Source of the DNA: Candidatus Nomurabacteria bacterium
Lineage (GTDB): Bacteria; Patescibacteriota; Minisyncoccia; Phycocordibacterales; UBA9973
NCBI GenBank assembly: GCA_943348755.1
Contig: CALQYS010000006.1
Location: forward strand, 1 to 48,506
Length of the DNA: 48,506 nt
Direction of reading: 5' to 3'
Positions 8,024 through 17,653 of this stretch are shown here, in pieces (position 1 is the first letter of the stretch; each line of letters starts with the position of its first letter). The notes beneath the pieces were generated by a model. The model was given only the letters and a program-made list of their open reading frames with translations. It was not told the DNA's origin and did not search any database. A program made the translations under genes and the position numbers.

Positions 8024-8490
8024 TAAGATACGTTAATTATTTTATAATTAACTGTCCCATTTGGAGTTTTGAAGGAAACACTACTACCCTTCTTCTTACC
8101 GAAGAGCGCCTCACCAAAAGGAGATTTATTTGAAATTTTACCGGCTATCATATCAGCTTCTTCAGACCCGACTATTGTGTATGTTTTTTCTTCTTTAGTG
8201 CCTTCCTTTTGCACCACCACCTTGGAACCGACTTCTACTATGTCTCCTCCGTGCCGAGAAAAAATCTGTGAAGATTGTAAAATAGTTTCTACATGCTTGA
8301 TGCGCTCTTCAAGCTTGCCCTGATCTTCCCTAGCTTGATGATATTCCGCATTTTCCCCCAAATCACCGAGGGATTTAGCGTACTCTAAAGTCGAGAGAAT
8401 TTCTTTTCTTTTTGGGCCTTTTAAATCTTTCAGCTCTGCTTCTAGGGCCTTCTTTTTTTCTTCAGTTATATAGTTAGCTCCTTGATCCAT
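8023..8490 (-). CDS. greA: Transcription elongation factor GreA
   Basis: YITEEKKKALEAELKDLK, GDLGENAEYHQAREDQ, SPFGEALFGKKKG. Confidence 0.92.
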   Translation of the reverse strand: MDQGANYITEEKKKALEAELKDLKGPKRKEILSTLEYAKSLGDLGENAEYHQAREDQGKLEERIKHVETILQSSQIFSRHGGDIVEVGSKVVVQKEGTKEEKTYTIVGSEEADMIAGKISNKSPFGEALFGKKKGSSVSFKTPNGTVNYKIINVS

Positions 8491-8548
8491 GCTATTAATA
8501 TTATCTTTTTTTGACAAAAGAGTCAATTATATGATAGCCTATACCGAT

Positions 8549-8782
8549 ATGGCTAAAACAGTAATTGAGGTGAAGAAAAATCCAAACGAAAACAATTCGA
8601 GCGTCTTACGTCGTTTTTCGCGCAGAATTCAAGAATCGGGAATAATCCGTAAGGTTAAGGGCGCTCGTTACAACGTTCGCAAAGAGTCTCGATTGAAAAT
8701 AAAGAAAAGTGCACTCAAAAGACTCGCTCGAAGAATCGAGATAGAACACTTGAAGAAACTCGGCAAGATGGTCACTAAATAG
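8549..8782 (+). CDS. rpsU: Small ribosomal subunit protein bS21
   Basis: MAKTVIEVKKNPNENNSSVLRRFSRRIQESG; start reassigned to 8549. Confidence 0.8.
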   Translation: MAKTVIEVKKNPNENNSSVLRRFSRRIQESGIIRKVKGARYNVRKESRLKIKKSALKRLARRIEIEHLKKLGKMVTK

Positions 8783-13516: not shown

Positions 13517-13543
13517 TAAAAAGCCCCTTTTGGGAGCTTTTTA
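13517..13543. terminator. Intrinsic terminator-like hairpin
   Basis: AAAAAGCCCCTTTTGGGAGCTTTTT, stem with U-tract. Confidence 0.6.
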
Positions 13544-13550
13544 CTACGCG

Positions 13551-13837
13551 TGAACTAATTATACACTTTGCACGAACTTTTTTCGAGGGGAAATCCTAGC
13601 GTGCCTCGCGCCCGCCAAAGGCGGGCAGGCGTTCTACGCCCTTTTTCCAAAGGAGAAAAGCGAGGCACGCAATACCAATACAAAATGGACTCGGTTTTGC
13701 GAAACTATTTTGCGGGAGGGAGGGTTCGCAAAACCGAGACTAAGTTTTTTGAAATTCGGCGGGATTCGGGTTTCCGCCCCGCAGGAGGGTGCGGGAGGAA
13801 TGCGGGGCGGGGGTTTTGGAATTTTGGCGGGGGGCTA
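13551..13837 (+). repeat. Left copy of 287-bp perfect inverted repeat (IR1-L)
   Basis: Reverse complement of 15554-15840 by direct comparison, equal length; the encoded pseudo-ORFs are identical. Confidence 0.95.
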
Positions 13838-13855: not shown

Positions 13856-14998
13856 TTAGAGGCTTAATATGCCAGAAAGCTCAAAGGCAGATTTTAATCT
13901 TGCTTGTTTGATTTTGCTTTCTAGTGAATCATCAAAATCTATCCATCTAATACCATATACATTTATGGTTTGTCTTTTGGTGGGTTGGATACCATTTCTT
14001 TTTTCATTTTCATAATACTCATATTTTTTGACTGATTCAGTGGGAAGACCAAGAAGAATGCCAACAGCCAAATGATTACCTACTGCTGATTTATTTTCGC
14101 CAATAGAACCCATAATTGTATCTGGATCATCAGAACCGAAAATCTCAAATATCTCTTTATGTTTTTTTATAACATCTCCAACTTGTTCTTTGTCATATAC
14201 ATACTTACCTTTCACTTCTATACCAAAAGATTTTAATAAATTAATTATTTCTAAATTATCAGGGTCCAGAGGTGTTTCAAGTAAAACAACAGGTTTTTCT
14301 CCCAAAAATAGTGCCTTGAGTGCGTTCAGATCGATTGGGTTAAAAATGGTTTCAAATTTTTCTCGTACTGATTGTTCTTGTATGATTTTAATAAATTGCT
14401 TAAATTTTTCTGCTCCTTTATTCCATTTTAAGGTATCTAATTCGTTAAAAATTTCTACTGGAGATTCAAATATTACTGGAGCTGGTGGAGTATTAGCACT
14501 TGTTCGTAAAGCATTGTTATATAATGTGTGAAATTCTGAATTTAATATTGTATATTCTTGCTCATCACCACTGGAAAGAGAACCTAAAAGTTTCCTCAAC
14601 CTACTAAGGATTTGTAGTCGCTCAAACTTTTCGTCATCCATTTCAAATACAATAGGATGCTCCATAGAATCTTGACTCCGTGTTTTGGTAATATGTTCTT
14701 CCGGTTTTTCAGTATTTGCAACTCTTACACGGCTTGAAGTTTCAACAGCATTAATAAATTTTTTATTCAAATCGGAATACTCTTCTCTGTCTGCTTCACT
14801 TAAGTTTTCACCCATAGCGAGAATTGCACCAAGTTCTTGAAGTCGGTTAAAATTTTCTTCTCCCATTATTTCTACACTATTATATCCATTAGGAACCACA
14901 GGAGAAGCTTCAGCAGTTGTTGATATGTTTTCTATCTTTTTTTGTGTTTTTACACCATTTAACGATGGATTAAGCGGTGTGGGTGAAAATCCTTCCAT
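13856..14998 (-). CDS. Hypothetical protein (cargo of the IR1 element)
   Basis: 380-aa ORF with ordinary amino-acid composition; family not recognised. Confidence 0.75.
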   Translation of the reverse strand: MEGFSPTPLNPSLNGVKTQKKIENISTTAEASPVVPNGYNSVEIMGEENFNRLQELGAILAMGENLSEADREEYSDLNKKFINAVETSSRVRVANTEKPEEHITKTRSQDSMEHPIVFEMDDEKFERLQILSRLRKLLGSLSSGDEQEYTILNSEFHTLYNNALRTSANTPPAPVIFESPVEIFNELDTLKWNKGAEKFKQFIKIIQEQSVREKFETIFNPIDLNALKALFLGEKPVVLLETPLDPDNLEIINLLKSFGIEVKGKYVYDKEQVGDVIKKHKEIFEIFGSDDPDTIMGSIGENKSAVGNHLAVGILLGLPTESVKKYEYYENEKRNGIQPTKRQTINVYGIRWIDFDDSLESKIKQARLKSAFELSGILSL

Positions 14999-15126: not shown

Positions 15127-15516
15127 CTAGAGGAAAGATTTTAATTTTTGCCTAATTTCATCAAAAAGTTCGTTTGAAACCTCATAGAGCTTTCTTTTTA
15201 ATCTTTTCACACTAACTAATTTCATTTGTGCCAAAATCGCAGAAACTTTTTGATTATTTGGATCGGTGTAATTGAAATAAAAATCAAAATCTTTCTGCTT
15301 GGTGGAAAGTGATATAGACCAAAACATATGATTATTAAATTTCTTAATTATTAAAATCGGACGAGAAAAATTATCTCCGCTTCCATTTTGTTCAAATCCG
15401 ATATTTCTGCCAAGACTACACATCCAAACTTCTCCCTCTTTGGGAAATTTATCAGGATCATTTTTCTCGGCTTCAATTTTCTTTTTTAACTCATTCCAAG
15501 AGTCAAAATCTTTCAT
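15127..15516 (-). CDS. PemK/MazF-like type II toxin family protein
   Basis: GEVWMCSLGRNIGFEQNG...FSRPILIIKKFN...AILAQMKLVSVKRLKRK matches the PemK/MazF pattern. Confidence 0.75.
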   Translation of the reverse strand: MKDFDSWNELKKKIEAEKNDPDKFPKEGEVWMCSLGRNIGFEQNGSGDNFSRPILIIKKFNNHMFWSISLSTKQKDFDFYFNYTDPNNQKVSAILAQMKLVSVKRLKRKLYEVSNELFDEIRQKLKSFL

Positions 15517-15553: not shown

Positions 15554-15840
15554 TAGCCCCCCGCCAAAATTCCAAAACCCCCGCCCCGCATTCCTCCCGC
15601 ACCCTCCTGCGGGGCGGAAACCCGAATCCCGCCGAATTTCAAAAAACTTAGTCTCGGTTTTGCGAACCCTCCCTCCCGCAAAATAGTTTCGCAAAACCGA
15701 GTCCATTTTGTATTGGTATTGCGTGCCTCGCTTTTCTCCTTTGGAAAAAGGGCGTAGAACGCCTGCCCGCCTTTGGCGGGCGCGAGGCACGCTAGGATTT
15801 CCCCTCGAAAAAAGTTCGTGCAAAGTGTATAATTAGTTCA
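15554..15840 (-). repeat. Right copy of 287-bp perfect inverted repeat (IR1-R)
   Basis: Reverse complement of 13551-13837. Confidence 0.95.
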
Positions 15841-15967
15841 CCCAAAGAAACGTTTGCGAAATTAGAAATAAGGTGCGAGTTTTCAGAATGAAAACTCGCG
15901 CTAGGTAGCCCGCTTCCGCCCTTTGCGGAAGCGACAAAATCCCAAAGTTCCCCCCAGTGTATGGAAA
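15838..15967 (+). repeat. Left copy of 130-bp perfect inverted repeat (IR2-L)
   Basis: TCACCCAAAGAAACG...CAGTGTATGGAAA is the exact reverse complement of 17375-17504; includes the recombinase start codon. Confidence 0.95.
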
Positions 15968-17562
15968 CAATTCAAATCAAAACAAAATGTGTTCTCTACG
16001 CCAGAAAATCTACTGAAGATGACGACAAACAAGTCATGAGTATTGAAGCTCAACTTTTTGAACTGCGTGAATATGCGCGTAGAGAATGCATTGAAATTCT
16101 AAAAGAATTTACGGAAGCGAAAAGCGCAAAGAAACCCGGGCGAGAAGAATTTGCCAAAATGTTGGCGTTCGTGGAAACTTCAAAAGAACCAATCGGCATA
16201 CTCGCTTGGCATCCAGACCGTCTCGCCCGAAATTCTGTTGATGGTGGAAAAATAATATACTTAGTGGACATCAACAGAATTGCTTCTTTACGCTTTCCTC
16301 AGTTTTGGTTTGAATCAACTCCGCAAGGCAAATTTATGTTGCAAGTGGCTTTCGGACAATCAAAATATTTTTCTGATAATCTTGTTGAAAATGTGAAGCG
16401 CGGAGTCCGCCAAAAACTTCGCCGTGGGGAATGGCTTACAAAAGCTCCGTATGGTTATGTAAATAATTTGAAAACGAGAAATATTGAACCTCATCCCGTG
16501 TATTCAAAAATCGTGGTGAGAGCTTTTGAAGAATATGTGAAAAATATTTACACCATTGAAGGATTAAGCAAATTTTTGGCGGACTTAGGACTTGTCACAA
16601 AAATAGGAAAGCCACTTGCCAAAGCTTGCATTGTGCGATTACTTACCAATCGTGCATATTTAGGATTTATCAAACACCACGATGAATGGCACAATGGAAG
16701 CTTTGCGCCAATTATTTCTCCGACCCTGTTTGAAGCAGTGCAGAAAATCTATAAAACGAGACAGAGACCGAGAAAATCTAAAATTGCTCATCCATTTCAT
16801 TTTCTCGGTTTTGCTCGTTGTGGCGAGTGTGGAGGTATGTTTACCGCTCAATATTCTACCAACCGTTTTGGCACAAAATATTCATATTATCGTTGCACAA
16901 AAAAGTTTGGGAAGTGCGGTCAACTATACCTCCAAGAAAACGCACTCGCCACACAACTGCAAACACTGCTTCAATCAGTGTCGCTTCCCCGTGAAGAAAT
17001 ATTAAAAATGGAAAAGAAAATTGATGAATGGGAAAATGAAAATATTTGCGCGCGGGGAAGTGTTGTCCAAAATCTCAAAGAAAAGATTCGAGAAAATCAA
17101 GAGAAGCTGGACAAACTTGTTTCCATTTACCTAGACGGGGACATTGAACGAGAAATATATTTAGAACGAAAAGATTTACTCATGCGAGAAAAAGCTTCTT
17201 TTCTCGAATCCGAAAGAGATTTTGGACAACAGAGAAAAAATTGGATCGAACCCTTGCGGAGTTTCGTTTTGTCCTTGAAAGAATGTGCCGATTTGGAAAA
17301 AACCGAAAATTATTTGGAATGGAAGCGGTTTTTCAAAAAAATCGGCTCTAACCCTGAAATCAAGGACAAAACGATTTCCATACACTGGGGGGAACTTTGG
17401 GATTTTGTCGCTTCCGCAAAGGGCGGAAGCGGGCTACCTAGCGCGAGTTTTCATTCTGAAAACTCGCACCTTATTTCTAATTTCGCAAACGTTTCTTTGG
17501 GTGACCCTACAGGGAATCGAACCCTGATTATCGGATTGAAAACCCGGTGTCCTAACCGTTAG
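15961..17562 (+). CDS. Large serine recombinase (resolvase domain + recombinase domain + zinc ribbon)
   Basis: CVLYARKSTEDDDKQVMSIEAQL catalytic N-terminus, WHPDRLARNSVDGG, recombinase domain, FLGFARCGECGGMFTAQYS...YYRCTKKFGKCGQ zinc ribbon. The C-terminus reads through IR2-R and antisense to tRNA-Glu. Confidence 0.9.
   Translation: METIQIKTKCVLYARKSTEDDDKQVMSIEAQLFELREYARRECIEILKEFTEAKSAKKPGREEFAKMLAFVETSKEPIGILAWHPDRLARNSVDGGKIIYLVDINRIASLRFPQFWFESTPQGKFMLQVAFGQSKYFSDNLVENVKRGVRQKLRRGEWLTKAPYGYVNNLKTRNIEPHPVYSKIVVRAFEEYVKNIYTIEGLSKFLADLGLVTKIGKPLAKACIVRLLTNRAYLGFIKHHDEWHNGSFAPIISPTLFEAVQKIYKTRQRPRKSKIAHPFHFLGFARCGECGGMFTAQYSTNRFGTKYSYYRCTKKFGKCGQLYLQENALATQLQTLLQSVSLPREEILKMEKKIDEWENENICARGSVVQNLKEKIRENQEKLDKLVSIYLDGDIEREIYLERKDLLMREKASFLESERDFGQQRKNWIEPLRSFVLSLKECADLEKTENYLEWKRFFKKIGSNPEIKDKTISIHWGELWDFVASAKGGSGLPSASFHSENSHLISNFANVSLGDPTGNRTLIIGLKTRCPNR
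17375..17504 (-). repeat. Right copy of 130-bp perfect inverted repeat (IR2-R)
   Basis: Exact reverse complement of 15838-15967; overlaps the last 3 nt of tRNA-Glu. Confidence 0.95.
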
Positions 17563-17573
17563 ACGATAGGGCC
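17502..17573 (-). tRNA. tRNA-Glu(TTC)
   Basis: Minus strand GGCCCTA...CCGGGTTTTCAATCCGA...CAGGGTTCGATTCCCTG-TAGGGTC-A; anticodon TTC; followed by CCC rather than CCA. Confidence 0.88.
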
Positions 17574-17653
17574 ATGTAGAAAAATATAGCATTTTTGTAC
17601 TTAATTGCAAAACAAAAGAATAAATTAAATATAAAAAAATATTTTGAAAAAGT

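Follow-up and report, generated by a model that had tools for sequence, protein, structure and literature searches.

The paired ends of a mobile-element family in a Candidatus Nomurabacteria genome and its relatives contain a three-armed cloverleaf motif that is real and evolutionarily conserved. Since the shape of this cloverleaf is kept while its sequence changes, it very probably has a job.

The window, by which we mean the whole 48,506-nt stretch of DNA analysed, contains one such element, with chromosomal genes on both sides. Starting from the target tRNA gene, its order is tRNA / IR2 - large serine recombinase - IR2' / IR1 - cargo - IR1' / flank, with IR1 and IR2 being two pairs of inverted repeats (Table 1). 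The recombinase matches PF00239 (1e-21), PF07508 (2.3e-10), and PF13408 (9.5e-8), and its C-terminal codons overlap tRNA-Glu antisense.

Table 1. Positions of the element, its repeats, and its folded structures within the window
Feature	Position	Strand	Basis or remark
IR1 left arm	13541..13837	+	inverted repeat; outer end of element
IR1 right arm	15554..15850	-	inverted repeat; meets IR2 at core
IR2 left arm, 130 bp	15838..15967	+	perfect inverted repeat
IR2 right arm, 130 bp	17375..17504	-	ends 7 bp inside tRNA-Glu 3' end
Three-arm cloverleaf, IR1 left arm	13599..13670	+	stems located, ssDNA folding, homologues
Cloverleaf outer stem	13599-13609/13660-13670
Cloverleaf arms	13610-13626, 13628-13640, 13642-13659
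Cloverleaf mirror copy, IR1 right arm	15721..15792	-	inverted-repeat alignment
Hairpin D	13690..13738	+	conserved in other IR1 arms with compensatory changes
Hairpin E, G-rich loop	13774..13810	+	stem sequence varies among elements
Outward sigma70-like promoter TCGAAA-17-TATAAT (putative), left arm	13558..13586	-	consensus match only
Mirror promoter-like site	15805..15833	+	reads into recombinase; consensus match only
Predicted attR-side attP half	13550..13577	-	core GTGA/TCAC 13550-13553; T-loop-like GTTC 13574-13577
Predicted internal attP copy, inverted relative to outer	15814..15841	+	GTTC 15814-15817 to core TCAC 15838-15841
Large serine recombinase	15961..17562	+	Resolvase + Recombinase + zinc ribbon
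tRNA-Glu (UUC), target gene	17498..17574	-	T-arm probably the attB-derived half of attL
Cargo, 380-aa protein of unknown function	13856..14998	-
Cargo, PemK/MazF-like toxin	15127..15516	-	PF02452 E 1.5e-8

All of the stems proposed in a preliminary description of this DNA are present, including the perfect 11-bp outer stem and the three arms, as are two additional hairpins, D and E, with perfect stems of 14 and 10 bp. The mirror copy it had placed in the opposite arm is real as well, since the two IR1 arms form an inverted repeat of 297 nt with 99% identity. The cloverleaf is composed of 11+17+1+13+1+18+11 = 72 nt and forms a near-perfect four-way junction with hardly any unpaired bases. Arm 3, which has a T.G pair, is the weakest, and DNA parameters pair just 5 bp of it. 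Folded as ssDNA, the 72-mer reached -30.7 kcal/mol compared to a mean of -13.9 for shuffled sequences (z -7.0), with 0 of 200 shuffles equal to it, and the whole 297-nt arm also outperformed its shuffles both as DNA (z -6.8) and as RNA (z -5.1).

Conservation of the cloverleaf and neighbouring hairpins

A structure scan showed that the three-arm design recurs in other loci with different sequences, and 70 distinct cloverleaf sequences were collected from other elements and genomes. When aligned, 96.2% of cells are paired and double changes occur at 21 of the 24 base pairs, counts that are inflated because this alignment (A5) was fitted to a covariance model. A separate MAFFT/RNAalifold alignment of 15 sequences has double changes at 16/24 pairs. 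The covariation score was 0.425 versus 0.195 in shuffles (0/500 as good), and slid registers scored far lower. Unconstrained DNA folding produced a three-branch junction in 65 of the 70 sequences, with a median z of -7.5. The compensatory changes anticipated in homologues are thus present, and loss of the stems without compensation was not seen. A chance origin of the cloverleaf is ruled out by the shuffles, the recurrence, and the covariation. The arm-2 loop is GAA in 46/70 sequences; in DNA, a GAA triloop with a C-G closing pair is exceptionally stable.

The covariance model (R1) matched 22 of 80 congeneric genomes and 40 of 148 in the family (12/25 genera), falling to 14/247 in the order, 11/387 in the class, and 6/381 in the phylum, in samples that overlap and include the home genome. 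The genomes scanned are draft assemblies of 0.4-1.2 Mb, and many contigs end within the arms. In 69 contexts the attP half-site motif described below was found immediately upstream of the cloverleaf in 64 cases by script and 67 by eye; of the 5 script failures, L195, L100, and L196 show a visible variant of the motif, leaving L138 and L139. The cloverleaf is positioned ~25-45 nt outside this motif.

The cloverleaf is also optional, as it is missing from roughly half of the complete elements surveyed and several IR1 arms have only hairpins D and E. This, together with its modular nature and its differing sequence families, is what would be expected of a REP- or MITE-like passenger that entered the arms by insertion before spreading with them. 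Such a history is very unlikely given that the cloverleaf occupies one position beside the attP half in nearly all contexts and that both arms carry a matching copy. Dispersed solitary copies at unrelated positions would characterise an independent MITE; this is not the pattern seen, and that classification was rejected.

Hairpin D shows compensatory changes of its own, with TTTT/AAAA replaced by CAGG/CCTG or AAAA/TTTT, and MAFFT with RNAalifold gave double changes at 5 of 8 pairs. Hairpin E was judged by eye, and both the sequence and the length of its stem differ between elements. Its loop (window 13784-13800 and homologues) is rich in G, with mirror symmetry in many elements (GGAGGGGTCTGGGGAGG), and could form a G-quadruplex or be compared to doubled Shine-Dalgarno sequences. 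The hairpins also rearrange locally. In the element on contig C4 of the home genome the hairpin E loop is flipped in one IR1 arm (L009 5944-5978, 8521-8555), where the copies of CGCCCCGCATTCCTCCCGCACCCTCCTGCGGGGCG in the two arms are direct and not inverted. At L102 (1501-1584) the arms of the cloverleaf are rearranged and the model matches either strand, with 56 and 51 bits, as would result from a partial flip.

Element layout and integration at tRNA genes

Both repeat pairs occur in the same layout in at least 17 elements of the home genome and related genomes (the window element, L010, L057, L059, L064, L065, L074, L078, L191, L193, L194, L196, L199, L206, L207, L212, and L213), with some of the repeats imperfect or cut by contig ends. 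Their annotated targets are tRNA-Glu, Ser, Gly, Ala, Thr, Gln, Leu, or Val, and the arms within one element are mostly 97-100% identical. The home genome has more copies on contigs C3, C4, C8, and C9 with different cargo, including a restriction-modification gene, Shedu, and a phosphoesterase. Cargo across the elements is similarly diverse (restriction-modification, Shedu, peptidase, NUDIX, and metabolic enzymes), and no replication, transfer, or capsid families are among the 25 commonest cargo families listed. In L072, L189, and L194 the first cargo gene is helix-turn-helix-like, with a short palindrome, AATGTCGCAAGGCGACATTTG, within its coding sequence.

An empty site is available for a sibling of the window element at a tRNA-Thr/prfB locus, prfB being identified by reading its first codons and not by database comparison. 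At the filled locus (L212) one boundary has the sequence ...CCATCGGCTC/CAAAACCC... and the opposite boundary ...AAAGACACTC/ATGGAAAAAG..., while the uninterrupted junction is exactly GGCTC/ATGGA in four genomes (G024, G008, G009, and G056). From this exact empty site it follows that the two modules, recombinase and cargo, move in or out as a pair, with CTC as the core, and at this locus the whole element is shown to enter as one unit. In the window element the core is TCAC, and no clean empty site was found for its tRNA-Glu locus among relatives, whose synteny differs there.

In 19 elements the tRNA T-loop motif (GTTCGA or close to it) lies 18-21 nt from the IR2 boundary wherever this boundary is clean, and the equivalent motif of IR1' lies 4-6 nt further outward in 19/19 measurable elements. 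The motif for the zinc domain of serine integrases lies about 5 bp further from the core in attP than in attB (PMC3783163). The offset of +4 to +6 nt matches this shift, so that IR1' would be the P half and the tRNA T-arm the B half; one predicted attP half-site is given by IR1' and the other by IR2. Because IR1/IR1' and IR2/IR2' are mirrored, the internal junction IR2'/IR1 would hold the inferred attP a second time, in inverted orientation, and the excised circle is expected to carry two attP regions in inverted orientation. These comparisons show the family to insert at the 3' end of tRNA genes, with the predicted large serine recombinase as the responsible enzyme. The recombinase points towards the tRNA in at least 22 of 22 elements, with its last codons running antisense into the tRNA gene. 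Two equivalent, inverted attP copies would predict both recombinase orientations, and one direction only is seen.

Several loci depart from the standard layout. L208 (6816-9471) has no recombinase, and there a tRNA-Thr whose 3' part is duplicated is followed by 34 bp of IR2 and then by IR1-cargo-IR1', while L209 (2486-2937) is a cargo-less derivative directly after tRNA-Glu with two opposed IR1 arms whose cloverleafs are ~160 nt apart. On contig C38 of G002 a tRNA-Thr is followed by a truncated prfB start (L233, 5646-5840), and a second prfB start lies behind an IR1 arm (8321-8569); these repeated starts may be a sign of repeated insertion at the site. The existence of recombinase-less, IR1-bounded cargo such as L208 raises the question of whether IR1-cargo and IR2-recombinase are two separate mobile elements that insert side by side. 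We regard this as highly improbable. The layout recurs in the elements listed above, the att half at the tRNA-side end of IR2 has its partner at the outer end of IR1', and it is removal of both modules together that gives the exact empty site. L208 itself looks like a deletion derivative, since it retains the IR2 piece beside IR1.

With its recombinase domains, a core shared by attL and attR together with the sibling's empty site, and the attP motif shift, the element belongs with large-serine-recombinase elements. It resembles the tRNA-targeting phages, ICEs, and IMEs of this type in its recombinase domains, short core repeat in attL/attR, ~5-bp attP/attB motif shift, insertion at the 3' end of a gene, and accessory cargo. 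Unlike those elements, here a long inverted repeat bounds each module, which gives a second, inverted attP inside, the arms contain a covarying cloverleaf and hairpins, and no transfer, replication, or phage genes were seen. The yeast 2-micron plasmid is a circle in which two unique regions are parted by inverted repeats with recombination sites. The likeness is in the two regions and the inverted repeats, whereas here there is a serine integrase, the element is inserted in the chromosome, and the circle is inferred.

The element family was not described in the literature searched, which left out most subscription journals and all preprints. A plasmid search gave no match for the element, viral contigs contained no relative of it, and phage records had only distant integrases (<=~26% identity) among the matches listed; the best phage match, MT836653, is without long near-perfect inverted repeats. 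As these plasmid, phage, and viral-contig comparisons gave no close relative, a phage or plasmid origin was rejected.

Possible roles of the folded arms

The preliminary description saw no protein-coding constraint in this architecture, and this reading stands: the arms are non-coding and linked to the neighbouring recombinase. Its comparison with folded single-stranded recombination substrates holds in part: the fold is recombinase-linked and a role in ssDNA is possible, but the cloverleaf lies outside the ~50-bp attP core and so is not itself the minimal recombination substrate. IS200/IS605, REP/RAYT, and integron attC sites are likewise folded single-stranded sites near a recombinase; they differ in that the enzyme here is a serine recombinase and neither a HUH transposase nor a tyrosine integrase. 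The suggested HUH/TnpA enzyme has no counterpart, as the sole recombinase is the large serine enzyme and no such domain occurs in the ORFs of the window element. IS200/IS605 and REP/RAYT were accordingly rejected for want of a Y1 HUH transposase gene among those ORFs, and attC because the recombinase is serine-type and not a tyrosine IntI.

Hairpin replication ends had also been proposed. Streptomyces telomeres and parvovirus ITRs do have multi-armed hairpins in inverted terminal repeats, with locally flipped variants. They differ from the present case, in which the elements sit inside chromosomes, with chromosomal genes on both sides of the window element, and the empty site of the sibling element is exact; the ends of a linear replicon are therefore ruled out.

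The arms could act as RNA or as DNA. As RNA, the hairpins could be terminators or processing structures that separate transcription of the cargo, recombinase, and host, with an outward promoter in the arm driving the recombinase. Promoter-like TCGAAA-17-TATAAT sites point outward at both IR1 ends, T-runs follow hairpin D, and the IR1 arm folds well as RNA too. We nevertheless consider this role rather improbable. Non-Watson-Crick cells in the cloverleaf alignment are G.T in 44 cases versus A.C in 33, which indicates no strong strand bias and no one-strand G.U excess. The cloverleaf is not followed by a T-run of the terminator kind, and there is no excess of terminator-like sites. In an Rfam search no family overlapped the cloverleaf, and gathering scores were reached by tRNAs only.

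The absence of a strong strand preference, the prevalence of GAA in the arm-2 loop, the place beside attP, and the mirrored arrangement favour a role as DNA. Our tentative preference, held with less than even confidence, is that the cloverleaf and hairpins are a DNA structure used in a single-stranded stage of the element. Folding would take place in the single-stranded state, such as that left by transformational uptake or strand displacement, and the folded structure would load a protein or polymerase so that the element is made double-stranded and the recombinase expressed. As each arm has an inverted twin, either strand would carry one correctly oriented copy, and the near-identity of the arms may be kept by gene conversion or pairing between twins. 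Known single-strand origins consist of several hairpins and work in one orientation, and their structure can outweigh their sequence (PMC4595007). The sso of rolling-circle plasmids and ICEBs1 has, as here, adjacent stem-loops in non-coding DNA, and it is this multi-hairpin anatomy alone that matches (PMC4595007). Unlike an sso, the structures here come in inverted pairs in an element without a rolling-circle initiator. The optional nature of the cloverleaf and the constant orientation of the recombinase count against the single-strand proposal.

A DNA role in the duplex is also conceivable, though we think it unlikely. The cloverleaf could be extruded as a cruciform in supercoiled DNA and bound by the recombinase, a directionality factor, or a host junction protein, and thereby regulate synapsis, excision, or protection of the arms. 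A near-perfect four-way junction at a short distance from the attP half-site motif is consistent with this, as is a tolerance of mismatches that is about equal on both strands. However, serine integrases have been described as working without accessory DNA (PMC3783163), and many otherwise similar elements have no cloverleaf.

Taking the single-stranded reading further, these mobile elements of ultra-small bacteria may form a class that is so far undescribed and moves as ssDNA. The mirrored arrays beside two inverted attP sites would let either strand be recognised and made double-stranded on arrival, and the tRNA-mimicking GTTCGA half would let related recombinases use almost any tRNA gene. 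This fuller picture is speculative, and we would give it only a modest chance of being correct. It is rare for a shape to be preserved by compensatory mutation in the ends of mobile elements, and such preservation implies a specific folding event or binding partner. The T-loop-mimicking attP half-site offers a testable rule for how serine integrases may use many tRNA genes, and the elements themselves appear to carry defence and other genes among bacteria with tiny genomes.
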